Of a DNA stretch of 64,000 nucleotides, positions 15,950 to 42,361 are shown piece by piece. The notes under the pieces are model-generated. The model saw only the letters and a list, made by a program, of their open reading frames with translations. It had not been told where the DNA came from and did no database searches. The stretch covers positions 118,297 to 182,296 of the forward strand of contig CADCIK010000001.1 in assembly GCA_902801415.1 (NCBI GenBank), given 5' to 3'. How positions within the stretch are numbered: the stretch's first letter is position 1; each line of letters starts with the position of its first letter. This DNA comes from an uncultured Lachnospiraceae bacterium (GTDB lineage Bacteria; Bacillota; Clostridia; Lachnospirales; Lachnospiraceae). Position numbers and translations under genes: made by a program.

Positions 15950-16320
15950 ATGGAAGAACGCAGGGCGTTCTTCTGCTGCTCCCTTATCTTATCGCCCTGC
16001 CGGAGAACCCCCGGCCCGGAATTGTTAGTGCGACAAAATTCGCCGCAATCATTACCCCTGCCCTGCAATAAAGGCCTGCCACTTGTCCATTATGGCCACA
16101 GATCCCCACAATGCACTTATGCAGGACAAAATATATAGACTTGCCGAAGCCCCCAGAAGGACGCTGCGCACTCCTGCTGGAAGAATAATATTCCTTCACA
16201 CAAACCCAAGCAGAACACCGCCCCCGCGGCGTCCGCGCCGGAAAACACTATATATAAATATATTTATTTGTTTTCTTTTCTTTTATAGAAAAAAACTTAC
16301 CGCGTAAGAAAAATTCGTAC
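15950..16320. ncRNA. Duplicated 375-bp non-coding element, copy 1
   Basis: Alignable along its length with 41985-42361. It opens with a perfect hairpin GAAGAACGC-AGG-GCGTTCTTC (15953-15973). Conserved blocks follow, including CTATATA-rich stretches, GCAGGACAA, CGAAGCCC and CAGAAGGAC, then a GC hairpin, CCGGAAAACACTATATA and CTTACCGCGTAAG. Open frames in it are not shared between the copies, which argues for RNA or DNA structure rather than protein. The transcribed strand is not determined. It lies between the repressor and the late-operon terminator. Confidence 0.6.
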
Positions 16321-16336
16321 CGCGTAAGAAAAATTC
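16299..16336. repeat. Tandem 18-bp repeat
   Basis: ACCGCGTAAGAAAAATTC occurs twice, 20 bases apart, at the end of copy 1. Related words occur after copy 2 (42340-42395) and at 42647-42673. Confidence 0.7.
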
Positions 16337-16394
16337 TGACGGGCGGGGAAAAATCCCCCGGTTTCTCCCGCCATAAAAATGATCATCCCCAGAT

Positions 16395-16423
16395 AAAAAA
16401 AGAGCCGGGATCGCTCCCGGCTC
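16395..16423 (-). terminator. Late-operon terminator
   Basis: Minus-strand hairpin GAGCCGGGA / TCCCGGCTC with a 4-base loop and a seven-base U run, about 110 bases after the endolysin stop. Confidence 0.88.
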
Positions 16424-16531
16424 AATCTGACTAAATCCCTCGCGAGCGGTTAGATAGTCTCAAAAAAATGAAAAAACAATAAAAATATATAAAGAAAATA
16501 TAAACAAGGCAGGAAGAGAGAAAGAAGAAGC

Positions 16532-19162
16532 TCAGACTCTCTCCACCCAACGCGGCTGTGCAATATAAATCCAGCCGCCGGCCTTCAATTCGCCCCAGTC
16601 TCCGTCTGTCTTGACAACGGTGTATATTCCGACCGGGCAGTCTCTATAAGCCGGATAGGACGTGCCAGGCCCGCGCCTCACATTCATTCCTGTCTTGACT
16701 TTTACCAGAAAACTTTTCACCGGTTCCGTTTCCGTCTTTTTACCGGTATACACGGCCTTTCCCTTGCTGTCATATACTGTGAGGCCGGTTTCGTCGGCCT
16801 TATCCTTCGCATTTTTCAGTATTTTATATGCCCCGACCTGTGACTTGCTGTCGGTCCAGGTCTTCCTGACGCGGTATATCTCTTCTACCGGTTCCGGCTC
16901 TCCTTTGCCGTATTTTATCGCATAAGATATATCTTTCTTTCCGCTCTGTTTCCACGTCATCTTTCCGGCCCTTGCTATACCGACAATATCCCCGTCTAAC
17001 TGCCATACGGGTATGCCCTGCTGCTTAAAACGACGGCTGCCATACTGAGTAAATTCGCAGGATCCCGGCCCTTTCTTTTCATTGTTCGCCTCGATGACAA
17101 GGACAACGCCCCTGTCGTCCGCAGCTGTCGCGTATGCCATTCCGGCGGCGTTTCCGTGATGAGGAGAGTCTATAACCTTGACGGCATAATCCTTAAAATA
17201 TTTCAGCATTTCGGCGCCCTTGCCCGGTCCGTCCGAAGTCCATACCGTGTAACTGTTTGTTTCCAGTATTCCGAGAGCTCCATCGTTGCAATAAGCCCAC
17301 GCATGGCCGTCGTCATATTCCGTGAATTTTGTCGGCTGGTTGCGATATACAATAAAGGACATTTCGCCGACGTCGATCTTGTCGCCGGTCTTGACGTATC
17401 GGACTTTCGCGCCCTTGCTGCGCGCCTTATCTATCAGCTTTTGCAGGTATGCTTTATCGCTCTTGACAGATCGTGCGTTCGCGCTCCCGTCTCCTGCCAG
17501 TTTGAGGCTCGCGGGATCGTAACAGATAAATTCGTCGCATATAATCCCCGCCGTATCCAGCATCTGATAGATACCGCCCAGATGATCGCTGTGCGCGTGT
17601 GATCCTATCGCAGTATAATGCGTGACGCCTTTTTCTTTCATCCGTTTTATCAGTTTCCCGGAAGGGACCGAGTCCTTATCGAAGGCGTCATATACAACGC
17701 AGCGCCCGTTCTGGTCGATGAAAAGCATCCCGGAACCGCGTCTGTCATCCGGGGAGTCCTGGCACGGCCATGAGGGAAAATATATTTCTATCTCTCTCGT
17801 TTTTGTCTCTGTCTTCCCGGCCGCGCTCTCTTTCTTCTCTTCCTGCTTTTTCTCTTCTTTCTTTTCCGCTGCGTTGTATTTTGTCAATCCGTACTGTTCG
17901 ACCAGGCGGCAAAGCTTCGAGACGTAATCCGGAGCCGTCGCATACCCGCCGGCCTTGATGATCTCCGCCGCCTTTTTGTAGTCTGTACATCCGACCAGTC
18001 CCGCATATCGAAGTGCGCTTCCGTTCTTCCGTGCCCCTGCCAGGTATGCAGAATGATCCGCGACGGACTCGGCCCAATTTTTATAAGCGCGGAAGTCCGC
18101 CCTGACTGTCGCAGGCCCGGATGAGTAGACCTCTTTCGTATCCTTCGAATACACGCTCTTTCCGTCCCATGTGGAACCGCTCCATGTATTCCCGGAAAGA
18201 CTGCACTTCATTCCGAATAAATTATGGGCAGTTTTTCCAAGGTCGGAGCGCCCGAAACCGCTCTCTAAAATTGCTTGCGCCACAGTAATACAGGCCAAAA
18301 TCCCCGTCTTTTCCTGATCCTTTCTTGCGAGCTCTCCGATCGTTTTTATGAAGGCGGCGTTATCTGTCGCGGGCGTTTCCTGCTTTTCTTCCCGCTTTTC
18401 TTCCCGCTTTTTTCCGGCTTTGTAGTCCGCCTCCAATGCGGCGCGCGTTTTAGGTCCGAATACGCCGTCTGTCGCCAAGTTATGATCCGCCTGGAATGAG
18501 AGAACGGCCTTCTCCGTATCCGCGCCCCATGATCCATCGGCGCCGGCTTTTCCGCAGTTGTATCCGCAGGCTATAAGCATTTCCTGCATTTTCTTGACAT
18601 CTTCGCCCTGGTCTCCCTTGCTCAGAGAAACAACGACCGCCGCGCCTGTCAGTCTGCTTTTGAATTTTCTCCATTCTGCATCGCCTGAAACAGCACCCCA
18701 GCCCGGAACACGCGGGCAGCTTTTTCCCGTTACGTCGTAGTGACGGATGACATTCGCCGCCGGAACGGAGAATTTCTGCATAAGATATTTTGTCAGCTCA
18801 ACCGCGGCAGAAACGGCCGCCGTTGTGAATTCCCAGTTTTCGCCGTTATAGTGTGTGCAGATCTCTACCCCGATGCTGTTGCGGTTTGTGCATTTGCCGT
18901 ACATCGGATGGAAGGCGCTCTCTATCGGTCCCCCGCAGTGCCATGCGTAGTATCGCGCAGGATCGCAGTATTCCCTTATTTCCCCGGACCTGTCCACGAA
19001 GTAGTGTGCGCTCGCGCCCCTGTTGCCGTTGTTGAAGTAGTTCACATTATTCGCGGCGGTTCCTTCGCTGCCCGTGTAGTGAATAACAATATACTGCACT
19101 CTCTCGCTCCGGTTTCCGCAGTTTCTTCCGGCGTGGAAATTTGTGTTCTTGATTATATTCAT
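16532..19162 (-). CDS. Multidomain endolysin: amidase, PG-binding, glucosaminidase, metallo-beta-lactamase-fold and SH3 domains
   Basis: 876 residues, far longer than usual endolysins. Residues 1-165: Amidase_2 with zinc ligands H28 and H141 plus C149 in HYDVTGKSCP. 180-250: peptidoglycan-binding repeat (DGSWGADTEKAV, TDGVFGPKTR). 265-430: FlgJ-like glucosaminidase with E300 in AQAILESGFGRS. 455-745: metallo-beta-lactamase fold like the ComEC hydrolase domain, with HxHxDH as SHAHSDH (522-527), D644 in WTSDGPG and H668/H669 in DSPHHGN. 755-805: possible SPOR-like segment. 818-876: bacterial SH3. Charged Lys/Glu linkers separate the parts. Placed after the holin and fibres, it should release virions; the role of the metallo-hydrolase domain is unknown. 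Confidence 0.88.
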   Translation of the reverse strand: MNIIKNTNFHAGRNCGNRSERVQYIVIHYTGSEGTAANNVNYFNNGNRGASAHYFVDRSGEIREYCDPARYYAWHCGGPIESAFHPMYGKCTNRNSIGVEICTHYNGENWEFTTAAVSAAVELTKYLMQKFSVPAANVIRHYDVTGKSCPRVPGWGAVSGDAEWRKFKSRLTGAAVVVSLSKGDQGEDVKKMQEMLIACGYNCGKAGADGSWGADTEKAVLSFQADHNLATDGVFGPKTRAALEADYKAGKKREEKREEKQETPATDNAAFIKTIGELARKDQEKTGILACITVAQAILESGFGRSDLGKTAHNLFGMKCSLSGNTWSGSTWDGKSVYSKDTKEVYSSGPATVRADFRAYKNWAESVADHSAYLAGARKNGSALRYAGLVGCTDYKKAAEIIKAGGYATAPDYVSKLCRLVEQYGLTKYNAAEKKEEKKQEEKKESAAGKTETKTREIEIYFPSWPCQDSPDDRRGSGMLFIDQNGRCVVYDAFDKDSVPSGKLIKRMKEKGVTHYTAIGSHAHSDHLGGIYQMLDTAGIICDEFICYDPASLKLAGDGSANARSVKSDKAYLQKLIDKARSKGAKVRYVKTGDKIDVGEMSFIVYRNQPTKFTEYDDGHAWAYCNDGALGILETNSYTVWTSDGPGKGAEMLKYFKDYAVKVIDSPHHGNAAGMAYATAADDRGVVLVIEANNEKKGPGSCEFTQYGSRRFKQQGIPVWQLDGDIVGIARAGKMTWKQSGKKDISYAIKYGKGEPEPVEEIYRVRKTWTDSKSQVGAYKILKNAKDKADETGLTVYDSKGKAVYTGKKTETEPVKSFLVKVKTGMNVRRGPGTSYPAYRDCPVGIYTVVKTDGDWGELKAGGWIYIAQPRWVERV

Positions 19163-19207
19163 TTTTTCTCCTTTTTTGTGTTGAAACGTGTAGATTTTTC
19201 AACACAT

Positions 19208-19231
19208 TAAAAAGAGCGCCCGAAGGCGCTC
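19208..19231 (-). terminator. Terminator between tail-fibre genes and endolysin
   Basis: Minus-strand hairpin GAGCGCC-TTCG-GGCGCTC with a UUCG tetraloop and five U. The endolysin may therefore be expressed partly by read-through. Confidence 0.82.
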
Positions 19232-19256
19232 CGTGTTGGATCGGTATTTACTCTGT

Positions 19257-20012
19257 TTACATCTCGGAAATGCCGTGAATAATGTCGGGACGGGCACTCC
19301 AGTTCGTTGCATTTTTATAATTATCTAACTGATTGTCATTAACATACACAGTTGTGATGTTTGAGCCGTAATAGGCACTTAGGGACATCCCGAGTGTTGC
19401 GACGGAGTTATTGCGGACTATCAAAATCTGTGGACTCATACAAAACGCCTCGCCCTGCAAGTCGATCACATCTGTACGGCCCTCGTCCCCTATGTCTAAT
19501 GTATGGGTTTGCTGTACCTTATAGAACGCCATATTTGCTTCTGCCGTAAAAGCATCCGTTTCCATCACCTCCAGCGCAGGGAAGACAACTTTTTGAATAA
19601 TCTGCCCCAAAGCCTGATCTTGCAATTTGCCAAATGCATTTTTACGGACAGTACGAACCGCCGGAAATGTCAGCACGCCGTTCTGGTCCCCGCGGAGGGC
19701 TATGCATCCCACAAACGCTTTTTCCCCAATTTCTTCCGCCGCCTCAAAATGTACATTTGTCAGATGCTCGTCCAAATAAAAACAGTATGCCGGGATCGCC
19801 AGCGCGTCTTCGTTACTGTATTCGTAATCCGTGCCGTTTGTTCGCATCGTGATAACATCTTCTCCACCGCCGCCTCCCCCTGAAGGGATCGCAGCAATTG
19901 CTGTTGCCATCTGATCGAGAGTCATCGGAGTTGTCGCGCTGCTGTCTTTCGCCTTGATCGCATCTGCGATCGCGTCGAGTTTTGTATTACTAACTATTGA
20001 CTTATTCGCCAT
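19257..20012 (-). CDS. Leucine-rich-repeat (BspA-like) phage surface protein
   Basis: 251 residues. The first 45 residues (KLDAIADAIKAKDSSATTPM) are a short helical module often found at the start of phage fibre proteins. A Gly-rich hinge (SGGGGGG) follows, then BspA-type LRR repeats (IGEKAFVGCIAL, VRKNAFGKLQ, VMETDAFTAEA). The terminal YVNDNQLDNYKNATNWSARP is a typical LRR_5 cap. It is last in the tail-fibre set, so a receptor-binding or accessory adhesin role is likely. The related end NWSAYASQI occurs in the protein at 24120. Confidence 0.75.
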   Translation of the reverse strand: MANKSIVSNTKLDAIADAIKAKDSSATTPMTLDQMATAIAAIPSGGGGGGEDVITMRTNGTDYEYSNEDALAIPAYCFYLDEHLTNVHFEAAEEIGEKAFVGCIALRGDQNGVLTFPAVRTVRKNAFGKLQDQALGQIIQKVVFPALEVMETDAFTAEANMAFYKVQQTHTLDIGDEGRTDVIDLQGEAFCMSPQILIVRNNSVATLGMSLSAYYGSNITTVYVNDNQLDNYKNATNWSARPDIIHGISEM

Positions 20013-20030
20013 CTTTTCCGCCCCCTTTCC

Positions 20031-22754
20031 TCAGCTTCCGTAGGAGCTTGTGTCGCCGTTGTCGTAGTCCGCTTCAATTGCCGCCACGATCGCAGCTTTG
20101 TCCGCTGCCGTGAGAGTATACGCCGGCCCCTGCGGCCCTGCCTGTCCTTGCGGTCCCTGCGGCCCTGTTGCCCCCGCTGGTCCCGCCGGTCCCTGGGCGC
20201 CGTCCGGGATCTCGACTTCATTACCATCAGAAAATGAAATATATGTCTTCCCCGTCAGGTCATCGTGGTAAGAAGACTGCACAGTGATAGACTCGCCCGA
20301 CCGTCCGTCCGGTATATCGATTTTTGTTTCGTCGGAGAATGATATCGCTGTTACACCGGCATCTCCGTCGTGCTCCACGGATGTAATCATGATCGCTTCC
20401 CCGGGCTCGCCCTGTTGTCCCTGCTGTCCATCCGGTATCGTCAGCTCTGTCCCATCGGAGAAATAAATGCGTGTCTGGGTCCCGTCGTGATAAGATGACT
20501 CAATCGTTATCGGATCACCAGCGGGCCCCTGAATACCCTGCGGGCCCTGTGCGCCCTGTATCGGTCCCACGGTGTCGCTAGTTGAGTCTGTATAGTGTAT
20601 TGTCAGTGTGTAGTCGCTGTTGAGTTCCGTATAACTGATCGTCTTTCCGGAAGCCCCGCCGCCGGCTATTTTTGCCCATTCTGTCCATGTCCAGCCGCTC
20701 TGCGTTTTTGCACGGACTCTCGTATATATACTGTCCTTTGTGATTGCCATCTGAATGAGGCTCATAATGTTGTTGGCTTCCGCATTCGTGCCGCCTACCC
20801 AAACATTTAAAGTCCCGCTCGTTACCTCAGACGGCTTATGTGTCGCTGTACTGGTCTGAATTCCGTACATGCCTGGCGTTGTTAAATCATTCAGGTCGCA
20901 GTTCATCATCCATGTTGCTTCCTGTGATCCCGAGAAGTTCCGTATCGCCGGAACCTGTGTCGCTATGACATCCCCGAGGACTCGCCAGGGCTGCCAGGCG
21001 CCGTTATAAAAACGGTAATACATGCCGCTTGTGTTATTAATAAGCAGCTGCATTTTTGCGTATTCCGTCCCTGATACCATCAAGTTACTCACCCCGGTAG
21101 TGACTCCGTCCGGGCCGTTTGAGCTCGAGGACATGTGTACGCCAAAAAGCCCATTCTCCCGCTCGCTGTTAAAATCGAAGTTACGCTTGTACAGGTCCGC
21201 ACTTCCGGAAAAGTTTTTGAGCGCTCCGAGCGCAGCATACCCGAAAGGTATCAGGTTTCTTTTACCTGGCATTTCCACGTCTTCTTCCGTGCTGTCCGGC
21301 GCCATTGTACTGATCGAAGCGCCGTCTATGATGAGGCGGTTTGTGTACAACGGCCCCTGTACGGTGTACCTGTTGTATATATTGTCTGATACCTCGGCAA
21401 ACTGGACGCCAACGGCTGCATTTCCGCGGTGCGCGCTGCCGTATGAGAAAAACCAGATCGTCTTTGCGGCGTCACTCATTCCCTCTCCACTATCCGCCGC
21501 CAGGTAGACCATGTTCTTCTTTTCAGGCATTAAATAATTCCTGCACTGTGAGGCTCCTGTTACGAGGGCGCGGGCGTATGTCCCCATGCTGAAAAATGTC
21601 TCGATCGAGTCGGAGCAGCAGTTGCTGAAGAAGCCGCTGCCGTTGCTGTCGAGTCTGAAAGTACAGGATCCGTCGAAAAGCTCACTATACACAAGCCAAT
21701 GATGCAGACTTGCTATTTCGCTGTTTCCGCCCCCGCTGATCTTCATTCCGACTTTGAAGTTTTGTACGATGATGTCAGAAAACTGGCTGTCTGTCCCGTC
21801 GTCAACGATACCGACGGAGTCCAAGTATTCCGCCGGGTTTGTCAATTTGTTCACAAACTTGACCTTGTTTATACGGCTTTCAATGTTGTATTTATTTGTT
21901 GCGGCGGTCTTCCGTCCCAAATGCAGTCCTACGTGCGCCTGACATACCTGTACATTTTCTACGGTCATTTGCTCGCTGCCGTTGACTGAAATCGCCGTTC
22001 CGGCCCCATTCGCATCGATCGTGCCGCCCGTGATGATACTTCTTTTCGTTATGTATCCGTTCGGCCTGTTAGGGTTGACGTAAATAAAAGGATCAGCGCC
22101 GCCGTCTTTTCTCTTGATCACCGCGCCCGGCGCGAGATGCAGCATGACGTCATCTGCCGCTATTCCGTCGATCAGATATGTTTTTGTAAAATACACTTCG
22201 CGGCCTGTCTGTACCGCTTCCTGTACCGCCTCTGTGTCGTCCGTCTCGCCGTCGCCCTTTGCGCCGTAGTCTTCCGGGTATACATATCCCGTTCCCTCTC
22301 TTTTCGTCGCTTCTTCTGCCGCTTCTTCCGCCCTTCCGGCTGCTGTATTCATTGCTGTGATGAGTGTGTCAATCTCCCCCTGCTGTGACGGCGTGGGCGT
22401 CTCATCCGACATTTCCGGCTCATCGATCACGGGAATAATCACTGTATATAAAGTCGTTACGGCGCCGGTCTCTATAATATGGAAATAAGCGCGTGCCTTA
22501 TAATTCCGCCTGGATCCCGCGAGAACGCTGTCCGGGATCCCAACAGAGAGTACTCCGCCCGTTACCGTCGCAATGACCGGGACGGCCTCTGTATCTCCTT
22601 CCGCCGCGAAGCTGACTTTCACAGCCTGATCATCACAAGGCAGCCCGTATATCTCCAAAACCTGCCCGGAGTTGTGTGCATATGCCTGCGGTGCTATTGC
22701 CACGGTCTCGCCGGGCGCATATAAAACGCGGAGTCTGTTGTATTTGTTAGTCAT
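20031..22754 (-). CDS. Tail fibre/upper baseplate protein with pectate-lyase-like and collagen-like regions
   Basis: 907 residues; ATG at 22754 follows AGGAGGT. The N-terminal 110 residues resemble the BppU baseplate domain (YAPGETVAIAPQAYAHNSGQ). A beta-helix region begins at about 165 with YPEDYGAKGDGETDDTEAV, the pectate lyase_3 signature of tailspikes. The C-terminus has Gly-X-Y collagen repeats (GAQGPQGIQGPAGD, GPAGATGPQGPQGQAGPQGP) alternating with ISFSDGxEVEIPDG units that repeat four times. It is presumably the main host-recognition fibre; polysaccharide depolymerase activity is possible but not shown. Confidence 0.85.
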   Translation of the reverse strand: MTNKYNRLRVLYAPGETVAIAPQAYAHNSGQVLEIYGLPCDDQAVKVSFAAEGDTEAVPVIATVTGGVLSVGIPDSVLAGSRRNYKARAYFHIIETGAVTTLYTVIIPVIDEPEMSDETPTPSQQGEIDTLITAMNTAAGRAEEAAEEATKREGTGYVYPEDYGAKGDGETDDTEAVQEAVQTGREVYFTKTYLIDGIAADDVMLHLAPGAVIKRKDGGADPFIYVNPNRPNGYITKRSIITGGTIDANGAGTAISVNGSEQMTVENVQVCQAHVGLHLGRKTAATNKYNIESRINKVKFVNKLTNPAEYLDSVGIVDDGTDSQFSDIIVQNFKVGMKISGGGNSEIASLHHWLVYSELFDGSCTFRLDSNGSGFFSNCCSDSIETFFSMGTYARALVTGASQCRNYLMPEKKNMVYLAADSGEGMSDAAKTIWFFSYGSAHRGNAAVGVQFAEVSDNIYNRYTVQGPLYTNRLIIDGASISTMAPDSTEEDVEMPGKRNLIPFGYAALGALKNFSGSADLYKRNFDFNSERENGLFGVHMSSSSNGPDGVTTGVSNLMVSGTEYAKMQLLINNTSGMYYRFYNGAWQPWRVLGDVIATQVPAIRNFSGSQEATWMMNCDLNDLTTPGMYGIQTSTATHKPSEVTSGTLNVWVGGTNAEANNIMSLIQMAITKDSIYTRVRAKTQSGWTWTEWAKIAGGGASGKTISYTELNSDYTLTIHYTDSTSDTVGPIQGAQGPQGIQGPAGDPITIESSYHDGTQTRIYFSDGTELTIPDGQQGQQGEPGEAIMITSVEHDGDAGVTAISFSDETKIDIPDGRSGESITVQSSYHDDLTGKTYISFSDGNEVEIPDGAQGPAGPAGATGPQGPQGQAGPQGPAYTLTAADKAAIVAAIEADYDNGDTSSYGS

Positions 22755-22813
22755 ATATAACCTCCTGTATATAATCACAAATTATATATATATGAATGGT
22801 CTATAACAGGGGA

Positions 22814-22833
22814 GAGGCGCCTAAAGGCGCCTC
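22814..22833 (-). other. Stem-loop between holin and tail fibre
   Basis: GAGGCGCC / GGCGCCTC with loop TTTA on the minus strand, without a U tract. It may act as a processing or stability element before the fibre gene. Confidence 0.5.
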
Positions 22834-22851
22834 CCTCTCTCTTTTTCTTTA

Positions 22852-23154
22852 TTATTTTCCGTCGTCCTCGAAGCGGTCTTCAGCCATAAAGCCAATCGCG
22901 GATGTGGAATACTCTTTTTCTTCTTCTTCCTGCTCTTTTCCTGCTTCTGCGCCGGCCTTGTCTGCCCAGCCCTCCGCCAGGATGTAAGAAAGCACGGACG
23001 CGCCGGCCATTATGAGTGCCGTTACCTGTGCGGCCTCGCCCTCCGTGTGTCCCAGTGCTACGACGAGCAGTGATACGAAGGCGCAAATCGCAACCCAGAG
23101 TTTACGGCTTGTTAATTTCCTGACGATCATCTCTTTTGTAGTTTCCTTTTTCAT
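22852..23154 (-). CDS. Holin
   Basis: 100 residues with two hydrophobic segments (LWVAICAFVSLLVVALG and QVTALIMAGASVLSYILAEG) separated by a short turn, a basic N-terminus and a highly charged C-terminus (GKEQEEEEKEY). This is the class II holin layout. It overlaps the upstream gene by four bases and lies in the lysis region before the endolysin. Confidence 0.82.
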   Translation of the reverse strand: MKKETTKEMIVRKLTSRKLWVAICAFVSLLVVALGHTEGEAAQVTALIMAGASVLSYILAEGWADKAGAEAGKEQEEEEKEYSTSAIGFMAEDRFEDDGK

Positions 23155-23465
23155 TTTTCCGTTCCCTCTCTTTTAAAAATTAATTCCTGCACGCGCTCCA
23201 TATAGGCCTGCCCGGTCCCATTGCCTCCGAGCTCCCTGTACGGCTTATAAATATACTCATCAAGGTCCCTGTACTGTCCTTCCGAGATGTACCCCTTATC
23301 AAGGTATGTCTCGCACTGGTCCACGAGTTTTTCATGCAGCAATCCCAACAGCGCCGCCCTTTCCGCGCTCCGTCTGTCCATTTTTTTAATTAAAACGGCC
23401 TGGACGCATGCCCAAAAGCCCGTGCTCATAAAGATTGCGAGTACTATCTCCGTTATATGCTCCAT
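23151..23465 (-). CDS. Small membrane-anchored phage protein next to holin
   Basis: 104 residues with one N-terminal hydrophobic segment (IVLAIFMSTGFWACVQAVLI) and a helical soluble domain with GYISEGQYRDLDEYIYKPYR. Coupled to the holin by an ATGA overlap. It may be an antiholin or accessory holin; the family itself is common in Firmicute prophages but I cannot name a function. Confidence 0.7.
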   Translation of the reverse strand: MEHITEIVLAIFMSTGFWACVQAVLIKKMDRRSAERAALLGLLHEKLVDQCETYLDKGYISEGQYRDLDEYIYKPYRELGGNGTGQAYMERVQELIFKREGTEK

Positions 23466-23468
23466 CGC

Positions 23469-34496: not shown

Positions 34497-34784
34497 TCAT
34501 ATCATATAAAGTTCAATTTCTCCGGGCCAGGCCTCCGCCTGTGCTTTGAGTATCATCAGAAGGGACATGATTATGTTGTCCCCGTCCTCATCCAGTCTGT
34601 CGGTATGGATCACCGCCAGGCCGCCCCGCTGCTCCATTGGCTCTGTAAGGTCTCCCTCAACAAATCCCAAATTGTCGGCAATAAGGCAGGCTGTTTGTAC
34701 CGCCGCAGAAACGGCGGCGCAGGTCTCTCTCTTTGCGTGTCCCTCAATTATCAGGTCGGCATCGTCCCAGTATACTCTAACCAT
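34497..34784 (-). CDS. Prp-like cysteine protease
   Basis: 95 residues. LIIEGHAKRETCAAVSAAVQ contains the catalytic His (GHA) and Cys (CAAVSA) of the Prp family, which in Firmicutes trims the N-terminus of ribosomal protein L27. Here it is a phage gene right before the scaffold and capsid genes, so a prohead protease role is likely. ATG at 34784 follows AAGG; upstream frames overlap the thioredoxin-like gene. The family call is good, the substrate inferred. Confidence 0.8.
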   Translation of the reverse strand: MVRVYWDDADLIIEGHAKRETCAAVSAAVQTACLIADNLGFVEGDLTEPMEQRGGLAVIHTDRLDEDGDNIIMSLLMILKAQAEAWPGEIELYMI

Positions 34785-35046
34785 GATACCTTCCCCCTTG
34801 AAGCCATCTGATAATACTTTCCGTGTCGAATGTTTTATAGGCAATCCCCGCCCGTTCATCATTCTCAATGAAGAGAATTGACGGCGCGCCTTTTATGTTG
34901 TGCCGTTTGACAAAATCCGGAGCGGCGCTCCCGTTTACTGTATAGCACTGTTCCGGGCATTTTTCCTTTACCGGCTCGAATACCGTCCGCCTTATATACC
35001 CGCAGCGCGGGCAGTTGGCTGTTGTTACAAGTATTATTTTCCTCAT
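34777..35046 (-). CDS. Thioredoxin/glutaredoxin-like protein
   Basis: 89 residues: IILVTTANCPRCGYIRRTVF has a CPRC redox motif, KGAPSILFIEND the cis-Pro loop, and the C-terminus is helical. It overlaps the Prp-like gene by eight bases. Such small redoxins occur in phage morphogenesis modules; it may also keep the Prp catalytic Cys reduced, which is speculation. Confidence 0.82.
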   Translation of the reverse strand: MRKIILVTTANCPRCGYIRRTVFEPVKEKCPEQCYTVNGSAAPDFVKRHNIKGAPSILFIENDERAGIAYKTFDTESIIRWLQGGRYHG

Positions 35047-36029
35047 CGAAAATCTCCCGCTATTTTCTGCGCCTCTTCCTTCGTTGTGCTGTGTCTTTCG
35101 ACATAGTCATCCATCCATTTATCCCAGTCGGATACATGCGGTTCAATCCGGCAGCGGCAGTACGGATGCATCGGAGGAAAATTGACGCCCGCCGTCGCTT
35201 CTGATAATTTGAACGGGCCGTGATCTTCCAGCGCCCGGCATATCTTACAAACTTTATCGTCGTTGTATGTACTGAACGTGTATTCTGTGAAGTCCTCCTT
35301 TATTGCTTCTTTCGAAGCTTCCGCGTGAACATGTGTGCCTTCGGTATAGATGATCCTGTGTGCGTCTTTACGGCTCACATTCTGCAGCCTGTCAGAAAGA
35401 TCTTTCGCCATTTTCTTGTAACTGTCCCCGCGGGCAATTCCCTGTGCAAAGTCAGTCTGCAGGTATTTGGCCATTTTGAGGCGGTCCGTTATCAGGTAAT
35501 CACGGACGCCCAGTGTTGTCGCATAATACGACATATCCGCCGCCGTAACCCTTCCGGGCCTGCTTGCGATCTCCGCCAGTCCTTTATGGAAGGCGCCGCC
35601 TCTGATATTCGTTCCGATCCTGGTTCGTTCTGATACCTTCGACAGGTGCGCCGTTATCAGCTGTTCGTCACGTGCCGCGCTCTCCATCGCTCTCAGTCTT
35701 ATTGACTCCTGTTCCGCTTCCAATCTGTTGAGCTTGTATATATTCTCCCTCTGTGGCGTCAGGTGTGCATATTCCGGGTGTGACTGTGCGAAACTCTCCC
35801 AGTTTTTCCATATCTGTTCCCGTTGTACCGGGTCCGCCGCTTCTAACAGCTTTCGGAATTCTATGACGCCGTTCTCCCCGTACTTTGCATAATACAGCGC
35901 TATCTCTCTTTCAAGCATCTGCGCATCTTGCAGATACAACTTTGCCAGGCGCTTCTTTATTTTTTCTTCATCTTTTTCTAAGGCCTTCAAGAGGTCTATC
36001 TGTCTTTTTATCCAGTATGTATCCGCCAT
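35043..36029 (-). CDS. Minor head protein (Mu F/SPP1 gp7 family)
   Basis: 328 residues. The C-terminal signature KVCKICRALEDHGPFKLSEA followed by FPPMHPYCRCRIEP is that of Mu gpF-like head morphogenesis proteins. The N-terminal half is helical (DIDLLKALEKDEEKIKKRL-type). It binds the portal during procapsid assembly and lies directly after the portal, as usual. Confidence 0.9.
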   Translation of the reverse strand: MADTYWIKRQIDLLKALEKDEEKIKKRLAKLYLQDAQMLEREIALYYAKYGENGVIEFRKLLEAADPVQREQIWKNWESFAQSHPEYAHLTPQRENIYKLNRLEAEQESIRLRAMESAARDEQLITAHLSKVSERTRIGTNIRGGAFHKGLAEIASRPGRVTAADMSYYATTLGVRDYLITDRLKMAKYLQTDFAQGIARGDSYKKMAKDLSDRLQNVSRKDAHRIIYTEGTHVHAEASKEAIKEDFTEYTFSTYNDDKVCKICRALEDHGPFKLSEATAGVNFPPMHPYCRCRIEPHVSDWDKWMDDYVERHSTTKEEAQKIAGDFR

Positions 36030-37323
36030 TATTCATCACCGCTTTCGTCGGATCCTCCGCGGTCCGTCTCGTAATCGGTCATGTATGCCGTCATATCCTG
36101 TTCTTTCTCGATCTGATCCAGTTCTTTGTCAACATCCGGGACGATTGAAAGGACCTGCAGCGCCGTTCTCTTTGATGTTATTCCGCTCATTGCGCCGGCC
36201 GTCTGCGCCTCGTCGAGTAAGTTTGCCGGAAGGTTCAGCGTGTATTTGACATCGATCTTTTGCCAGTCATCCGGTTCCAGGTCTCCCGCCGGGTTGGAAC
36301 ATATCAGCTTGTAAAGCTGTTTTATGCTCTTTGTCAGCCTGCGGTTGATCTTTCCGGCTAAATTCGTCATGGGCTGTAAGCGGTATTTCATCGCCTGTCC
36401 GGAGGCGGCATTAAAGTTGTCGTCGCTGATATTCACCACCATGGCAACCTGGAAGATCTCGCGTTCCAATCTGTTCAAAAGGTTCCCACTACATCAGACG
36501 CGTTCCGCCCTTTCAAGTTGATCACCCTGTTATTACGGATCCAGCGGAGGTTTTTCTCGTCTACGTCTGCGCCGAGGATTTTCAGGTAACAGTCGCTGAA
36601 CGCATCAATATCATTGGACTTGTTGCTCAGGGTCTGGTTGAAGTCGTCGATCAAATTGAGAACGCCCTCGAAGATACCCTTACGGACTATGCCCGTACTC
36701 AGCTCTACCGCCGGGACTCCGTCGAAGCCGTGTCTTTCCTCTCCCGTGAAAGTTATGCCGCCCGCCCAATCGAAGTATCTTATATTCCCTTCGCCATCGG
36801 AGACACTGCCGTGCCGTTTACGGTCTATGTCATAGTAGGTTCTGACAAAATACAAAGGCCTCTGACGGATTCCATCGTCAAAAATTAGGAAGCTCTCCTC
36901 GGGGTCAGTGCAGGCAATCTCGATGTTTCCGTATTCGTTTTCATACGCCATGATATAAGAACGGCCATAAATCAGCATCGAGTCAACGGCTGCCGCAAGC
37001 TGTTCGATCATTCCCACCTGGTCGTTGTAGTCCGTCACTCTTTCCGCCGTCCCGCTGTCATCACTGATCACCTGCTGCGGGATCCCCTGAACATATCCCG
37101 AGAAGGTGTCTGTGATATACGAAGCAAAATTCACCGCGAGGCGATGGTCGGGCTTCCAGGCCGGTTTCTTCGGCTGTCTGAAAATTTTGTACTTATTTTC
37201 ATAAGCATCCCGGAGCGGTCTGTATTTTCTGGCAACATATTCATCGTTTTTGCGTATGAATTTCGCCAGGTCCTCGCTTGTTAATTCCCGTCCGCGGGGA
37301 AATCTGAATATTTTCTTTTCCAT
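36029..37323 (-). pseudogene. Portal protein (SPP1 gp6 family), disrupted
   Basis: The first frame (37323-36475, 282 aa) carries the N-terminal and core parts (YRPLRDAYENKYKIFRQPKK, VNFASYITDTFSGYVQGIPQ) and stops after GRNASDVVGTF. The C-terminal part (LLNRLEREIFQVAMVVNISD to GGSDESGDE) continues in the -1 frame to 36029. Compared with intact portals about 15 residues seem to be missing at the junction, with a frame change, so a small deletion is likely. The second part could only start at TTG with no ribosome site. Without a repair the phage could not package DNA. Confidence 0.8.
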
Positions 37324-37350
37324 TTTCTCTTTCTCCTAATACCAAAGGTA

Positions 37351-38670
37351 TTACAGGCCGCCGGCCCAGTTCGTGCCGGTCTCCAATTCAAGGCCGTCCA
37401 CGACATGCATCCAGCCATATCGCAGCGCGTCGCATGCGTGATCATTTTCCTTTACGGGCTTCTCGACGCCGTGCTTTGCCGCCGTTGAGTCCCATACATA
37501 GCCGGATATTTCCTCAAGTAACATTTCGCAGTTTTTATCTATCTTTATCTCGCCGTTCCCCAGTCCGGAGCTTGTCTCACGGATCCCGTCGAGAACGGCG
37601 TTGTCTGCGTCTTCCGTTTCGAGGCCGTCTTCTTCCAATTGCACTTTGAAGGACGCGGCAGCGGGGTCCACGATAATGACATCCATTGTCATAAGATCAT
37701 CACCCAGCCAGTGAATAATATCTTCCGAATACTGGCGGTCCGTTTTCTGTCTCCCGGAGTCCCTGCCGCTGTGATAATATTCACGGCGGATATACCATGT
37801 ATTATCTCTCCCCAGGCTCCACAACAGCGCCGCCGTCGCGTTGCTTGTACCGTAGTCAACAGATACGAATGTTTTCGTCCAGAATGTTTTCCCGTGCTTC
37901 TTCCGGTATTCTTCCGCGATCCTTTCGGCATCTACCGTGTCGGCCTCGGTATCGATCATGTCATATATAAGACCGTCAGCCGCCACCCATTCGCCCAGGA
38001 TGTAACGGCGGAACCATGTACCGACGTACAAACGACGGTATCTGTCACGGATCTCTTTCGACAGGCTCGTGTTGTCGTCCATGGTAAAATGGAGATACAG
38101 CATCTGCTTTTCTTTGTGCTGGTCAATCCATTCTTTCTTGATCCAGTGCCCGCTATTGCCGGGGTTACAGTTCATCCATATTTTGGAATTTTCGACGGAA
38201 CAACGGCCAATTGCCTGTTCGACGAAGCTACGTGGCATCAGAACAACTTCATCCAGGAATATTCCGGCAAGTGTAATACCCTGTATGAGGTCCTGGCTTC
38301 GTTCGTCTCTGCCGCCGAATATATAGAATTCCGCGCTCTTTTTGCCTTTTTTGATGATCAGCAAATTATCAGCGCGTTTGTCCGTGATCTCATATCCGAG
38401 AGCGGGGAGCGCCTGTTTCATCGGTCCCAGCACGTTGCGTCTGAAAGATCCGATCGTTTTTCCGCACATTCCCAGTGTCTCGCCGTCGTGTGCCGTCAGC
38501 GCCCACATAACAAACGATATACACATGCATAGTGTTTTACCGCTTCGAATGGCGCCGTCTGCGATGATCCCGGAAGCGTTCTCCACCGGTGAACCCGGAA
38601 CCCACCAATCAAGCAGCTGCCTTTGACGTTTTGAGAACGGGGAGAAACGGAACTTATTCTTTTTCTTCAT
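37351..38670 (-). CDS. terL: Terminase large subunit
   Basis: 439 residues. N-terminal ATPase: Walker A GAIRSGKTLCM, Walker B IFLDEVVLM, and coupling region IWMNCNPGNSGHWIKKEW. C-terminal RNase H-like nuclease: VSVDYGTSNATAALLW with catalytic Asp, and IIVDPAAASFK. It belongs to the PBSX/Terminase_3 group, usually headful or cos-variable packaging. Its start overlaps the small subunit stop by 17 bases. Confidence 0.95.
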   Translation of the reverse strand: MKKKNKFRFSPFSKRQRQLLDWWVPGSPVENASGIIADGAIRSGKTLCMCISFVMWALTAHDGETLGMCGKTIGSFRRNVLGPMKQALPALGYEITDKRADNLLIIKKGKKSAEFYIFGGRDERSQDLIQGITLAGIFLDEVVLMPRSFVEQAIGRCSVENSKIWMNCNPGNSGHWIKKEWIDQHKEKQMLYLHFTMDDNTSLSKEIRDRYRRLYVGTWFRRYILGEWVAADGLIYDMIDTEADTVDAERIAEEYRKKHGKTFWTKTFVSVDYGTSNATAALLWSLGRDNTWYIRREYYHSGRDSGRQKTDRQYSEDIIHWLGDDLMTMDVIIVDPAAASFKVQLEEDGLETEDADNAVLDGIRETSSGLGNGEIKIDKNCEMLLEEISGYVWDSTAAKHGVEKPVKENDHACDALRYGWMHVVDGLELETGTNWAGGL

Positions 38671-39202
38671 TTTTTCCCTCTTCTTCCCAGTCCTGTCCGG
38701 CCGTTCCCATAAGCGCTGTCAGGAATGTATCTTCGTTTTCTTCGGCCTCTTCTTCGGCTTCTTCTGCCTTTATGACCTGCTTTTTCAGGGCTTCTTCTTT
38801 TGCCCTGTCAAGGTTCGCCGCTGCTGTTGCACGGTCTGTCTGCGCGTCCTGCTGCCTGTCGTCTCGTTCCGTGTTCGCGCTCTGTCCGCTGTATCTCGCA
38901 ACGTATTCAGCGGCTTTTACGGATCCGGCGAGAGCCTCTCTCACCATCGCCGCGTTAAGCGCTGTCTGCATATCCGGATCAAGTCCGAGGGCTTCGAGCT
39001 GTTCCCTCATGACGTCATCCGGAACCTTCATGGTTAATATTTGGTTTAAGACCTTCTTGAAGTCCGCTTTCTTTCGTCTGGCGGCGCCGCTTGCTTTGCC
39101 GCCCATTGTTGCAATTTTTCTTTGTTCTATGTTTGTTCGGCGGTTAAGCGGGATCAGGTTTTCCGGGTTCCCGCGGCCGCCGGATTTTCCGCCTTTGGCC
39201 AT
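38654..39202 (-). CDS. terS: Terminase small subunit (probable)
   Basis: 182 residues: basic, Gly-rich N-terminus (GGKSGGRGNPENLIPLNRRT, GGKASGAARRKKADFKKVLN), a helical middle and a very acidic C-terminus (EEAEEEAEENEDTFLTAL). Position immediately before terL with coding overlap supports the call. Confidence 0.78.
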   Translation of the reverse strand: MAKGGKSGGRGNPENLIPLNRRTNIEQRKIATMGGKASGAARRKKADFKKVLNQILTMKVPDDVMREQLEALGLDPDMQTALNAAMVREALAGSVKAAEYVARYSGQSANTERDDRQQDAQTDRATAAANLDRAKEEALKKQVIKAEEAEEEAEENEDTFLTALMGTAGQDWEEEGKNEEKE

Positions 39203-39239
39203 GTCAGCCGCCTCTCTTTCTATCTAATTTCTATGAATT

Positions 39240-39260
39240 AAAAAACAGCCTCGGGGGCTG
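39240..39260 (-). terminator. Terminator before the terminase genes
   Basis: Minus-strand CAGCC / GGCTG with loop CCCGA and six U. Confidence 0.7.
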
Positions 39261-39325
39261 GTTCGTTGTTTTCCTTGTTCTTTTCTTTTATTTCTTCTGC
39301 CGTTCGCCTGTCAGCTTTTCCGAAA

Positions 39326-39544
39326 CTATCTGTCTAATGAGATCCACATACCAGGCTTTTCCTCACACTCTTCAGATTTATATACTTTTAGCCAAACAAA
39401 GCATGACTCAAATCGTTTTTTAGCATGATCAGCAGAATATCCATGCACATAATACGTTGGACTCTTGTCATTTAAAGGTCTATAATCTGCTGTTATTTTA
39501 AAGAGTTTAATGTCAGGGTGTGACATGCTCACTTTTTCGAACAC
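39326..39544 (-). CDS. Hypothetical phage protein, 72 aa
   Basis: MFEKVSMSHPDIKLFKITAD to GMWISLDR; GTG at 39544 or ATG at 39526. Compact, with aromatic residues spread evenly (YYVHGYSADHAKKRFESCFV). The frame begins four bases after the previous stop. No family recognised. Confidence 0.65.
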   Translation of the reverse strand: MFEKVSMSHPDIKLFKITADYRPLNDKSPTYYVHGYSADHAKKRFESCFVWLKVYKSEECEEKPGMWISLDR

Positions 39545-39548
39545 CCTC

Positions 39549-39782
39549 TCATCCTTCCTTTTCGCATTCTGCCTGTATTTTCGCTATCAGTTCCTTCTTG
39601 AAGTCCCTGTGATCAACCAGCGCGGCTTCGTATGTTTCGATACATGCACGGGCCGTTCTAAAAGTCATTTCGTCTTCATATACGCCATTTTTAAGATCTT
39701 CAAGGATCCCCTCGATCTCCCTGATCTTTTCATTGATTGTCATTAAAACGTTGTAATACCTGCAGATATTCTTCGCGTTCAT
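39549..39782 (-). CDS. Hypothetical helical phage protein, 77 aa
   Basis: MNAKNICRYYNVLMTINEKI with AGGAGG 6 bases before ATG 39782. Almost entirely helical, with heptad-like spacing (IREIEGILEDLKNGVYEDEM). No family recognised. Confidence 0.72.
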   Translation of the reverse strand: MNAKNICRYYNVLMTINEKIREIEGILEDLKNGVYEDEMTFRTARACIETYEAALVDHRDFKKELIAKIQAECEKEG

Positions 39783-39819
39783 CTCTTTCCTCCTGTTCGC
39801 TTCGCTCACTCTTACAAAT

Positions 39820-39841
39820 AAAAAAACAGCCCTCAGGCCGT
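39820..39841 (-). terminator. Weak terminator overlapping the sigma-like gene stop
   Basis: Minus-strand ACGGCC / GGGCTGT-type stem with one mismatch, then seven U. The gene's TGA lies in the loop. Confidence 0.55.
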
Positions 39842-40723
39842 CTCTCTTTCTTCTTTCCTTTTTCTGTATCTCTCTCGGTCCTGTGCCCGTCTGCGCTCTT
39901 TTTCTGCTTCGCTCATTCTGTTCCAGCGCTCTTTGTTTCTTGCCCTTATTTCTGCCTTGTGCGTCTCGTAGTATTTACGGCTGTATGCTCTCTGTTTTTC
40001 CGGGTTGTTTTCGCGCCATTCGCGCATATAGTCCGGATGACGTTCCAGCCAGTCTTCTGTGTAGCCTTTCTGACCGGCGGCTTTTCTTTCGTAGTATTTT
40101 TTGAGCTCTCGCTCTTTTATCTCTTCCTTGTGGGCTTCGTAATACTTTCTGCTGTATTCTCTCCGTTTTGCCTTCTGGTCCTCGTCCATGGAGTGATACC
40201 GCTTATTCTGTGCCGCCTTTTGTTCCTCTTTATGCTCCTGGTAGTACTTCCGGCATCTCTCGTTGATCTCATCGCGACGTTCCTGGTAATACTGTCTCGC
40301 ATGCTCTCTCTCGCGGTCCATGTTCGCGGCCCGTCTCTCACGTATTCTTGTAAGGATCCTCTCGCGGTTTTTACGGTAATATTCTCTATACCGTGCCCGC
40401 TCCCTTGCAAAATATTCATCGTCGAAGGAAACAGTAACATCTGTGCAGTCCCTTGATAAGACTGCATCGGAGAGTTCACATTGTGACCATTGTCCGCGGC
40501 GGTGTTCTTCGCGAATGATCTCCTTGAAGCGGTTTGTAATGATCGCACGGGCAAGCGGCTTGTATCCATCGCCCGGCGCCGCCTGCAATTTTTCCAGACA
40601 TTTAAACAATACAAGGTGTGCTTCCTGGCGCAGGTCTTCGCGCTCCGTTTTTGCGTTACGGAATTTCAAGCATACACTATCAATTATTGGTTCTAATACC
40701 GGCATATAGTCTTCATACGTCAT
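39833..40723 (-). CDS. Sigma-70-region-2-like regulator fused to a repetitive Arg/Glu/Tyr helical tail
   Basis: 296 residues from ATG 40723, which overlaps the previous stop (ATGA). Residues 5-75 resemble sigma factor region 2 (MPVLEPIIDSVCLKFRNAKT, EREDLRQEAHLVLFKCLEKL, FKEIIREEHRRGQWS). The rest is a string of about seven imperfect units of the type YYxxHKEEIxxRxRK: YYRKNRERIL, YYQERRDEIN, YYQEHKEEQK, YYEAHKEEIK, YYETHKAEIR. It has no region 4, the DNA-binding half for -35 recognition. It may act on late transcription near the operon start; function inferred. Confidence 0.65.
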   Translation of the reverse strand: MTYEDYMPVLEPIIDSVCLKFRNAKTEREDLRQEAHLVLFKCLEKLQAAPGDGYKPLARAIITNRFKEIIREEHRRGQWSQCELSDAVLSRDCTDVTVSFDDEYFARERARYREYYRKNRERILTRIRERRAANMDREREHARQYYQERRDEINERCRKYYQEHKEEQKAAQNKRYHSMDEDQKAKRREYSRKYYEAHKEEIKERELKKYYERKAAGQKGYTEDWLERHPDYMREWRENNPEKQRAYSRKYYETHKAEIRARNKERWNRMSEAEKERRRAQDRERYRKRKEERETA

Positions 40724-41085
40724 TCGGCAGCGGCCTCTCTTTCTGCCGCTTTTCTGGCCCTTACCTTTTCGCGGTATTTTCTGTTTTGTTCGGCTTTTTG
40801 CGCTTTGTGTGTCTCGCGCCATTCTTTCGCTTTTTCCAGGTATTTTTCACGGTTCTCGGAATAGTACTTTCTGCCGTACTCCCTCGCCCTTTCGCGGTTC
40901 CGGTCTCTCCACTCGTTCAGATATTCCGGATGATCTTCACGCCATTTTCGGCCTTGTTCGTTGTTTCTGTCCCTGTATTCCTGATGCGTCGCGCGGTATT
41001 TAGCAGCATATCCCGGATGCGCCTCTCTCCATTTTCGGAAATATTCTCTTTTATTATTTTCCTTGCTTTTTCCATTATCTTCCAT
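40720..41085 (-). CDS. Repetitive basic helical phage protein, 121 aa
   Basis: Built almost wholly from the same kind of unit as the tail of the next gene: YFRKWREAHPGYAAKYRATH, GRKWREDHPEYLNEWRDRNR, YGRKYYSENREKYLEKAKEW. Lys/Arg/Glu/Tyr-rich, likely one long helix. It overlaps the sigma-like gene by four bases, so the two could work together or descend from one repeat array. No known function. Confidence 0.7.
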   Translation of the reverse strand: MEDNGKSKENNKREYFRKWREAHPGYAAKYRATHQEYRDRNNEQGRKWREDHPEYLNEWRDRNRERAREYGRKYYSENREKYLEKAKEWRETHKAQKAEQNRKYREKVRARKAAEREAAAE

Positions 41086-41117
41086 CTCTCTTTCCCTCCT
41101 TTTCTGCTTTGTGTTTT

Positions 41118-41537
41118 TTACGGAACCGGCGTTTCGATTGCCTTTTTTATATCCCAGCCGGCTGCAAGCCTGTGTCTCAGGGTATCCGGTTTAATCCCCG
41201 CCCAGGCTGCCCACTGGCTCGCGGTTCCGGTAAGTGTCAGCGTGAAGTAGTTACAATTCGTCCTGTTTCTGTTGCTCTGTATTCGTGATACCCACCTGCA
41301 ATTTTCCGGACAGTAATCGCCTTTCGGGTCAATACGATCGATCACGAGGCGGCCCGGCTTCCAGCCGTGCGTGACGGCCCAGCGACCGAACGCCCGGTAA
41401 TCATGTCTCCATTCATCACATACCTTGATACCTTTCGCGCCGTAGTATTTATAGCTTTGATGTGCCTCACAATAGCAGCGTAAAAGCATGTTGATCCATG
41501 ATATATACCAGCCCGGCCTTTTGTTACTCTTTTCCAT
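41118..41537 (-). CDS. Phage DNA-binding protein of the HNH/AP2-associated type
   Basis: 139 residues. WINMLLRCYCEAHQSYKYYG, then AKGIKVCDEW, and IDRIDPKGDYCPENCRWVSR form the signature of a phage protein family found near homing-type endonucleases. The C-terminus TASQWAAWAGIKPDTLRHRL plus GWDIKKAIETP is a helix-turn-helix-like module. No HNH catalytic histidines are evident, so DNA binding rather than cleavage is more likely. It is the first gene of the late operon, following the leader terminator. Confidence 0.68.
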   Translation of the reverse strand: MEKSNKRPGWYISWINMLLRCYCEAHQSYKYYGAKGIKVCDEWRHDYRAFGRWAVTHGWKPGRLVIDRIDPKGDYCPENCRWVSRIQSNRNRTNCNYFTLTLTGTASQWAAWAGIKPDTLRHRLAAGWDIKKAIETPVP

Positions 41538-41561
41538 TTTTTACTATTCCCCTATTGCAAC

Positions 41562-41587
41562 AAAAAAAAGACCGGTTTCCCAGTCTT
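41562..41587 (-). terminator. Terminator at the end of the late leader
   Basis: Minus-strand AAGACTGG-GAAA-CCGGTCTT (one G-U) followed by eight U, between the late promoter and the first late gene. Confidence 0.85.
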
Positions 41588-41767
41588 TAACAGGTCCATG
41601 CCGTGCTGCCTGCCTGTCCCGCACGGTTTAGGACGCTTCTTATTTAATTGATCATCCCCCCATAAGGGAGGCCGGGTAGGATAATATCCCGCCCGGCCAG
41701 TGTTTCAAAACAGAAAGGAGATGATGAGATTGACGGAAAAGTAGCTTTTCTTCTACTCTTTCCATCA
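41588..41767 (-). ncRNA. Late-operon leader RNA or small RNA
   Basis: The transcript from the promoter at 41773-41801 would run about 200 bases to the terminator at 41562. It contains hairpins GGCCGGG / CCCGGCC (41670-41698) and CCGTGC / GCACGG (41601-41626). A frame starting with ATGATGGAAAGA near its 5' end (about 40 codons) has no ribosome site. Either a read-through-controlled leader or an independent sRNA. Confidence 0.58.
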
Positions 41768-41772
41768 TAGCA

Positions 41773-41801
41773 ATTATAGCACTTTGCTCTGGACACGTCA
41801 A
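41773..41801 (-). promoter_or_regulatory. Late promoter (leftward)
   Basis: Minus strand: -35 TTGACG (41796-41801), 17-base spacer, -10 TATAAT (41773-41778). It is the best promoter upstream of the late module. Confidence 0.85.
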
Positions 41802-41984
41802 CAACAAAATATACATTTTGCACATTTTATATATGTTTTGCAGTTATATTTATCATGTGAGTGTAACAAGAACGCATGTTTTCAAGTGGGATATTTTACA
41901 AAGTTTCTGCCTGTGTTTTGTGAAGTACTGCTAATGTCTGTTGCTGCGTCATGGGATCCGTACTGCGTCAGTTCTGTTTGCCAT

Positions 41985-42361
41985 ATGGAAGAACGCGAGG
42001 CGTTCTTCTGCCCGTTCTTATTTTAAAGCCCCGCCGGAGAAACCCGCCGCCCACGGAACTGTTAGTACTACTAATTATGCCCCGGTAGCAGGTCCACCGC
42101 AGAAGGACTAACACAAAGCCCCACACACAACATGGCCACCCGCCCAGCCAGTGCACTTCGGCAGGACAATATAATATAGGATCATCGAAGCCCACAGAAG
42201 GACAGTCTTTTCTCATGCAGAATAATATATATAGTATTTTCAAAACCCGCAGAAAGAACATTCCCCGGCGGCGCAGCGCGCCGGAAAACACTATATATAT
42301 AAATATATTTTTTTTCTTTTCTTTTACAGAAAAAAACTTACCGCGTAAGAAAAATTCGTAC
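41985..42361. ncRNA. Duplicated 375-bp non-coding element, copy 2
   Basis: Homologous to 15950-16320 in the same orientation. Opening hairpin GAAGAACGC-GAG-GCGTTCTTC (41988-42008) keeps the stem and changes the loop. A second GC hairpin near the end is CCGGCG / CGCCGG here, against CGCGG / CCGCG in copy 1. In this copy the word GCAGAAGGAC and close variants occur three times. It lies upstream of the late promoter and downstream of the restriction gene. Confidence 0.6.

Follow-up and report, generated by a model that had tools for sequence, protein, structure and literature searches.

Two homologous intergenic elements at the ends of a prophage late module: a possible pair of replication-origin-type sites

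We wondered why a temperate phage should carry two similar non-coding blocks, one at each end of its late genes. The blocks lie in a prophage of an uncultured Lachnospiraceae bacterium (genome G000; 116 contigs, 86% complete), within a stretch of 64,000 nucleotides of contig C1 that was analyzed as a whole and is referred to as the window. An earlier note on this DNA had proposed either a paired DNA site or a large structured RNA that occurs twice, and had suggested that the pair might mark the late module for recombination or jointly regulate it.

The prophage spans 40.2 kb and is bounded by a 21-bp repeat of a tRNA end (Table 1). The ORFs taken as phage genes are on the minus strand, with the exception of the gene for an XRE regulator. 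Early genes lie at 6-15 kb and include those for an ArpU-like regulator, RusA, a DnaB-like ATPase and a replisome organiser, the last of which matches PF09681 (E 1.5e-7) and the replisome organiser PHROG (E 1.1e-15). Late genes span 41537 to 16532, and a portal of the SPP1-type family is present.

Table 1. Positions in the window of the two elements, their parts and the prophage features discussed in the text. Promoter and terminators are candidates from consensus scans.
Feature	Position	Strand	Remarks
att core (left)	5911-5931		3' end of tRNA-Met (5857-5932)
Tyrosine integrase gene	6006-7247		adjoins tRNA-Met
RusA Holliday-junction resolvase	10126-10530	-	
DnaB-like helicase / RecA-fold ATPase	11295-12368	-	
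Replisome organiser (Phage_rep_org_N)	12465-13421	-	318 aa; proposed repeat binder
XRE (Cro/CI-type) regulator	15509-15856	+	
Copy 1 (W1)	15946-16340		between XRE gene and predicted late-operon terminator
Left-end hairpin, copy 1	15953-15973		9-bp stem, loop AGG, read from sequence
GC dyad, copy 1	16225-16237		CGCGG/CCGCG
AT tract, copy 1	16249-16299		least stable 50-bp window of prophage; candidate unwinding element
Dyad repeats, copy 1	16287-16336		20-bp unit AGAAAAATTCGTACCGCGTA, 2.5 copies; score 79, rank 1 of 60 tandem rows
Candidate intrinsic terminator, end of late unit	16423-16402	-	after endolysin gene
Candidate intrinsic terminator, late leader	41588-41567	-	before HNH gene
Candidate late promoter	41801-41773	-	TTGACG-17-TATAAT, TG before second hexamer; 11/12
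Copy 2 (W2)	41981-42381		between predicted late promoter and MmeI-like gene
Left-end hairpin, copy 2	41988-42008		9-bp stem, loop GAG, read from sequence
GC dyad, copy 2	42265-42284		CCGGCG/CGCCGG
AT tract, copy 2	42290-42340		third least stable 50-bp window of prophage
Dyad repeats, copy 2	42337-42395		20-bp; CTTACCGCGTAAG, GTACGCCGTCAG, CTTACCG...; score 55, rank 8 of 60 tandem rows
Further piece of copy-2 repeat array	42643-42677		92% to 42355-42390
att core (right)	46066-46086		21-bp repeat of tRNA end

The two copies align in direct orientation at 72.2% identity over 410 columns (E 1.2e-45) and are the longest and strongest among the repeats listed within the 40-kb prophage. Their alignment scores 180 bits, compared with a maximum of 22.9 bits in 50 Markov-resampled pairs. 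Identity is unevenly distributed, with 181 of 291 ungapped columns (62%) in the left three quarters and 84 of 92 (91%) at the right end, and the longest exact stretch in common is 34 bp. Gaps of one, two and three bases separate W1 from W2 so that no frame is kept throughout. The earlier description of two homologous non-coding blocks with unshared reading frames was thus confirmed. A search of the own genome with the elements returned both copies and one 35-bp piece adjoining copy 2 (E 0.001).

Read from right to left, each copy is composed of dyad repeats of about 20 bp, a pyrimidine/AT tract, a GC dyad and a left part. The hairpin with a 9-bp stem and differing 3-base loops was found in both copies, and the GC hairpin indeed keeps its pairing despite changed letters, both as first noticed. 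AT-tract stability was calculated as nearest-neighbour energy and ranked at 50-, 80- and 120-bp windows. The ranks fall with longer windows: at 80 bp the tracts stand fourth (W1) and tenth (W2), and at 120 bp neither is in the best 12. The repeats read CTTACCGCGTAAG and GTACCGCGTAAG in the window, and mixed half-sites, not perfect dyads, stand beside them. The left part holds conserved blocks including a GCAGAAGGAC-like word, which was picked from the elements themselves and has five of its nine occurrences in the prophage (at most one mismatch) inside the two elements.

Promoters and terminators come from consensus scans and are not mapped ends. The candidate late promoter sits 180 bp from copy 2 on the late-gene side, and a similar late promoter followed by a leader hairpin with a T run was read by eye in a sister prophage (genome G008) and in a viral contig (L025). 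As copy 2 is upstream of the predicted promoter and copy 1 is beyond the predicted terminator, both copies seem to lie outside the predicted late transcript. This agrees with the earlier placement of one copy past the late operon and one ahead of its promoter. The scan found no promoter-like site on either strand at 15500-16600.

We then asked how far the elements are shared by other phages. At E 1e-30 the terminase was found in three of the 62 genomes of the genus, namely the own genome, G008 (TerL 95% identical) and G023 (53-54%). The G008 prophage has the gene order of the window prophage and carries elements in the XRE/endolysin gap and in the HNH/MmeI-like gap, matching the two places in the window; one of these elements contains a run of N. 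Its copies are 86% identical to each other over 316 bp, plus 83% over 103 bp of repeat arrays, and their AT tracts are the first and fifth least stable 50-bp windows of that prophage. Contig L025 covers the copy-2 place only, with an element 95.6% identical to G008 copy 2 over 595 columns. Its element arrays hold ranks 1-2 of 15 tandem rows; in G008, ranks 2-5 of 54 fall within the two elements (three distinct arrays) and rank 1 lies elsewhere (7195-7276). The dyad repeat of G008 copy 2 and of L025 reads TTCGCACCGCGTGCGAA, so letters differ from the window on both arms. The sister-type copy 2 also has an extra array of four 21-bp dyad repeats (CTTGTAATTTTTACAAGATAC; 3398-3479 of locus L026 in G008, 2600-2685 of L025), and by eye three GTTAC...GTAAC-like repeats stand beyond the right end of the sister-type copy 1.

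Around the elements, DNA of the window phage aligns with that of the sister type at 66-81%, with values of 66% for HNH, 77-80% for the MmeI-like gene and its 3' flank, 79% for the end of the endolysin gene and 81% for the early block. Beside copy 1, the XRE gene gave no alignment as DNA. Seventeen of 32 late proteins are 70-95% identical to those of G008 (TerS 86%, TerL 95%) and 13 have diverged below 70%, tail proteins above all. Among 12 early proteins, eight have a match at 24-55% identity, with values of 52% for XRE, 47% for the ArpU-like protein and 39% for the initiator. Simple descent of both copies in place would lead one to expect orthologous copies to be more alike than the copies within one phage. 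This is the case on the short branch between G008 and L025 (95.6% versus 86%), and the reverse is true of the long branch. Window elements match those of G008 and L025 over 39-50 bp at best (E 1e-7 to 1e-9, in the AT tract or the repeats) though W1 and W2 are 72% and the G008 copies 86% identical, which suggests joint replacement. The simplest account of the three phages is that the pair was replaced jointly or slowly homogenised, as far as can be read from their sequences.

A DNA search of the 62 genus genomes returned the own genome and one 28-bp AT-rich match in G008, which pointed to the sister prophage; the sister element has no second genome among the 62. A sequence-only model (R1) matched six of the 62 at E 0.1, including the window and G008. 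The matches in the other four (G025, G026, G027 and G029), of which those in G029 and in contig C26 of G027 were read, were treated as chance, and tblastn with 45 window phage proteins against their six loci gave nothing at 1e-4. Across 397 genomes of the family seven had a match, namely the own genome and six with short AT-rich matches that were read and dismissed as chance. Two patterns drawn from the window element found no stretches in viral contigs; sister-element patterns found L025, and a further match in L194 lies inside a protein gene and was dismissed as chance. Against named phages (blastn, E up to 10), copy 2 gave three records, all short matches, and copy 1 gave 126, the best 20 of which are short and all in the AT-rich part. 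In the more distant G023, a 27.9-kb contig that covers an endolysin-like gene and TerS-TerL and ends 2.7 kb before TerS, there is no R1 match and no self-repeat of at least 50 bp. Arrays of this kind stand upstream of TerL in four of 95 loci; the scan took those of 161 loci with enough upstream DNA, and its coding filter drops the array of G008 itself (L035), which limits its sensitivity.

We speculated that the elements might act as DNA sites in replication. The lytic Bacillus phage SPP1 is described as having two origins, oriL and oriR, about 12-13 kb apart on the circle, each with direct repeats and an AT-rich DUE and both bound by gp38 (PMC3485210). Its oriL lies inside gene 38, and oriR has been proposed to be a protein-bound fork barrier. 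The window phage likewise has two distant sites with direct repeats and an AT-rich tract, 13.7 kb apart along the shorter arc of its 40.2-kb circle, encodes a replisome organiser and a DnaB-type helicase, and has a portal of the SPP1-type family. Unlike SPP1 it is temperate, and its sites are both intergenic, stand at the ends of the late unit and have about 400 bp in common. Because no site lies inside the window initiator gene, we filed the pair as working like SPP1 and not as a member of that system. The likeness is one of build and setting, not a proof. On the reading that we favour, with a probability of roughly 0.45, the two elements would form a pair of origin-type sites for phage replication, comparable to oriL and oriR of SPP1. 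Between the alternatives first offered, a paired DNA site fits the data, whereas a structured RNA is weakly supported at best.

Under such a scheme the replisome organiser would bind the repeats, together with the DnaB-like ATPase and host replication proteins, and melt the AT tract, giving theta replication from one site, probably copy 1 beside the early operon. The other site would serve as a further origin or as a protein-bound fork barrier. A barrier might help the switch to concatemer-forming replication, where the RusA resolvase could serve. The need of both sites to fit one initiator would account for joint replacement of the pair upon a change of the early region. Since head and packaging proteins are conserved and early proteins diverged, the partner of the elements is more likely an early protein. 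Comparison of the two phages does not single it out, as XRE and the ArpU-like protein have diverged much like the initiator. Against origins stand the intergenic position of both copies, whereas oriL of SPP1 is found inside the initiator gene, and the length of the conserved left part (about 290 bp), which exceeds what an origin needs. Third-position GC skew differed between late and other genes in the window phage and in G008 (p 0.031 and 0.025; rank test on genes with at least 15 G or C sites), and in both phages the late module came out as the best arc; the analysis omitted ORF 40720-41085 and the plus-strand XRE gene and represented G008 by 30 listed genes only. We rejected the skew as support for origins because permuted gene orders gave an equally good arc in 81 of 200 and 48 of 200 cases.

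In Firmicute phages with a replisome organiser, the origin is commonly located within that gene. We collected ten replisome-organiser-like genes, the window's and nine found with it as query. Tandem repeats scoring at least 50 occur in or at six of them (Bo-Finn and Arian, which have the same array, 4995_1, B1578, G054 and contig C44 of G034), and the remaining four (window, G008, contig C144 of G034, G051) have no in-gene repeats of that score. The maximum is 35 in the window gene, inside which we found no iterons, and 36 in the G008 gene. As in-gene repeats are missing, unlike in six of the ten genes, the window prophage and its sister seem to be without the usual in-gene origin and to carry origin-like DNA elsewhere. 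As a further point against origins, no non-coding pair was seen in G034:C144 (contig of 58.7 kb) or in G051 (25.4 kb); G034:C144 has only the C-terminal part of the initiator in common with the window phage and no other of its 45 proteins. In a mobile element of the genus (L214 12190-13870; G051:C21), a largely non-coding region of 1.7 kb with a 36-bp repeat, inverted repeats and an AT-rich stretch lies among genes for a DnaB-like ATPase, a replisome organiser and HNH. It is perhaps a single origin region of the same kind.

Phage lambda has one ori inside gene O, with dyad iterons about 20 bp apart, an AT-rich tract and an inverted repeat. The window elements resemble it in the order of their parts and differ in being two intergenic copies and in the family of the initiator. 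A wider generalization strikes us as doubtful. It holds that a temperate phage family keeps its origin as matched intergenic modules outside the ends of the late unit, one firing and the other acting as fork barrier or late origin, and that a given type of pair is exchanged together with its initiator; the type of origin pair would then define replication-specificity groups among phages with otherwise closely related head and packaging genes. If true, such phages would be natural experiments on how initiator and origin co-evolve and on what a second site does for a phage, and it would become possible to test the idea that a fork barrier serves the change from theta to concatemer replication. 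A well-described two-origin phage of Firmicutes is the lytic SPP1, and here it would be a temperate family with matched intergenic pairs. In open-licence PubMed Central, papers with oriL/oriR in phages include those on SPP1 and P1 and a Staphylococcus aureus phage study, and none, as far as titles and abstract openings show, describes a homologous intergenic pair around a late module.

The dyad repeats might instead be operators at which an early regulator, either the XRE repressor or the ArpU-like protein as late activator, binds both ends of the late module, as lambda CI acts at OL and OR, two homologous clusters of dyad sites. Joint regulation of the late module by the pair, as raised in the earlier note, would take this form. 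The 20-bp spacing of the dyads, the position of copy 2 upstream of the predicted late promoter, and the XRE gene that adjoins copy 1 and has diverged in the sister phage (52%) along with the element are all in line with operators. However, the copy-2 repeats lie about 540 bp upstream of that promoter, the copy-1 repeats have no promoter-like site nearby in the consensus scan and the outer copy-2 repeats only weak 9/12 ones, and the dyads are absent from the XRE/early promoter region. Operators would also leave the AT tract, the hairpin and the 290-bp left part unexplained. In lacking a promoter-like site at the copy-1 cluster and in having a much longer common sequence, the pair departs from lambda OL/OR. 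We regard operators as unlikely, though they are, with a structured RNA, the main rival.

More unlikely still are two paralogous genes for a structured regulatory RNA on either strand. With GOLLD, ROOL and HEARO the elements share a non-coding length of hundreds of bases, here within a Lachnospiraceae prophage; unlike these they have no Rfam match and come as two copies. GOLLD, ROOL and HEARO are longer than the window elements. The Rfam comparison proposed at the outset gave no match to either copy at the gathering score, GOLLD, ROOL and HEARO included, tRNA being the only family found in the window, and at E up to 5 each copy had sub-threshold matches only. No Rfam family thus fits either copy. 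Folding energies of both strands are moderately better than those of shuffled sequences (z -2.4 to -3.75), and the W1-W2 consensus fold has energy z-scores of -3.7 (minus) and -3.0 (plus). Covariation was assessed on consensus folds of two window sequences and of three sister-set sequences, with 100 column shuffles each. Double changes number 15 on the whole minus strand against a mean of 9.4 (reached by 2 of 100 shuffles), 10 against 5.5 on the whole plus strand (6 of 100) and 10 against 5.6 for the left part alone on the plus strand (1 of 100). The left part on the minus strand gave 12 against 9.5 (25 of 100), and the sister set 2 against 2.1 on the plus strand (62 of 100) and 4 against 2.3 on the minus strand (21 of 100). 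Since an excess appears in some combinations of strand and region and not in others, no strand is supported throughout, and the covariation seen in these alignments is weak and mixed. The consensus scan moreover shows no promoter-like site near copy 1 and no terminator-like sites at the ends of the copies, only weak ones inside and on the minus strand.

That the elements serve in packaging (cos/pac) or recombination strikes us as very unlikely. In favour of such sites, the HNH-TerS-TerL genes follow shortly downstream of copy 2, and the copies are direct repeats around the late module with a longest exact common stretch of 34 bp. Yet two cos sites would cut the genome in two, and TerS and TerL are conserved between phages whose elements are not. 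Exchange between direct repeats would delete the late genes, which also argues against the earlier suggestion that the pair marks the late module for recombination. A role as linker for module exchange was rejected because too little sequence is left in common between the pairs of the sister phages for modules to be exchanged. That the elements are remnants of a mobile element (MITE or IS end) inserted twice is scarcely credible: two similar non-coding copies with a hairpin at one end would fit, but the 116 contigs of the own genome hold only these two copies, no inverted repeat of at least 11 bp joins the element ends, and in the sister phage these two places are occupied by another pair. The terminal inverted repeats and dispersed copies of an insertion sequence, an origin considered earlier, were not found.

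Several further features of the prophage were observed. The portal gene (36029-37323) is split over two frames (149 and 282 aa), whereas G008 has a single frame of 445 aa; the split may reflect a defective prophage or an assembly error. Early in the late operon, 39833-40822 encodes a 329-aa protein with repeated RKYYEAHKEE-like segments, 70% identical over 309 aa in G008, and a weak match to sigma-70 region 2 (E 2.4e-4, below the curated cut-off). The ArpU-like protein has a weak match to sigma region 4, and together the two recall a split sigma factor. Three gaps of the early operon each contain a CCCGGAGGCCTTGCACCTCCGGCGCCCGCTTGTCGGGGACGGCT-like GC-hairpin segment (11246-11304, 12412-12461 and 13399-13449; 78-90% alike), which is a possible leader or antitermination element; the early region of G008 has short repeats of its own. 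Towards attR lies a gene for an MmeI-type single-chain restriction-modification protein (42853-45666), also present in G008 and, at least partly, in L025, and a perfect 22-bp direct repeat occurs near copy 2 (42451-42472) and next to attR (46021-46042). Butyrivibrio phage Bo-Finn (L201) carries three similar, mostly intergenic segments among its early genes (17701-17801, 18786-18958 and 19657-19831), and Arian likewise has three similar early-gene segments; repeated intergenic modules thus occur in other phages of this bacterial family.
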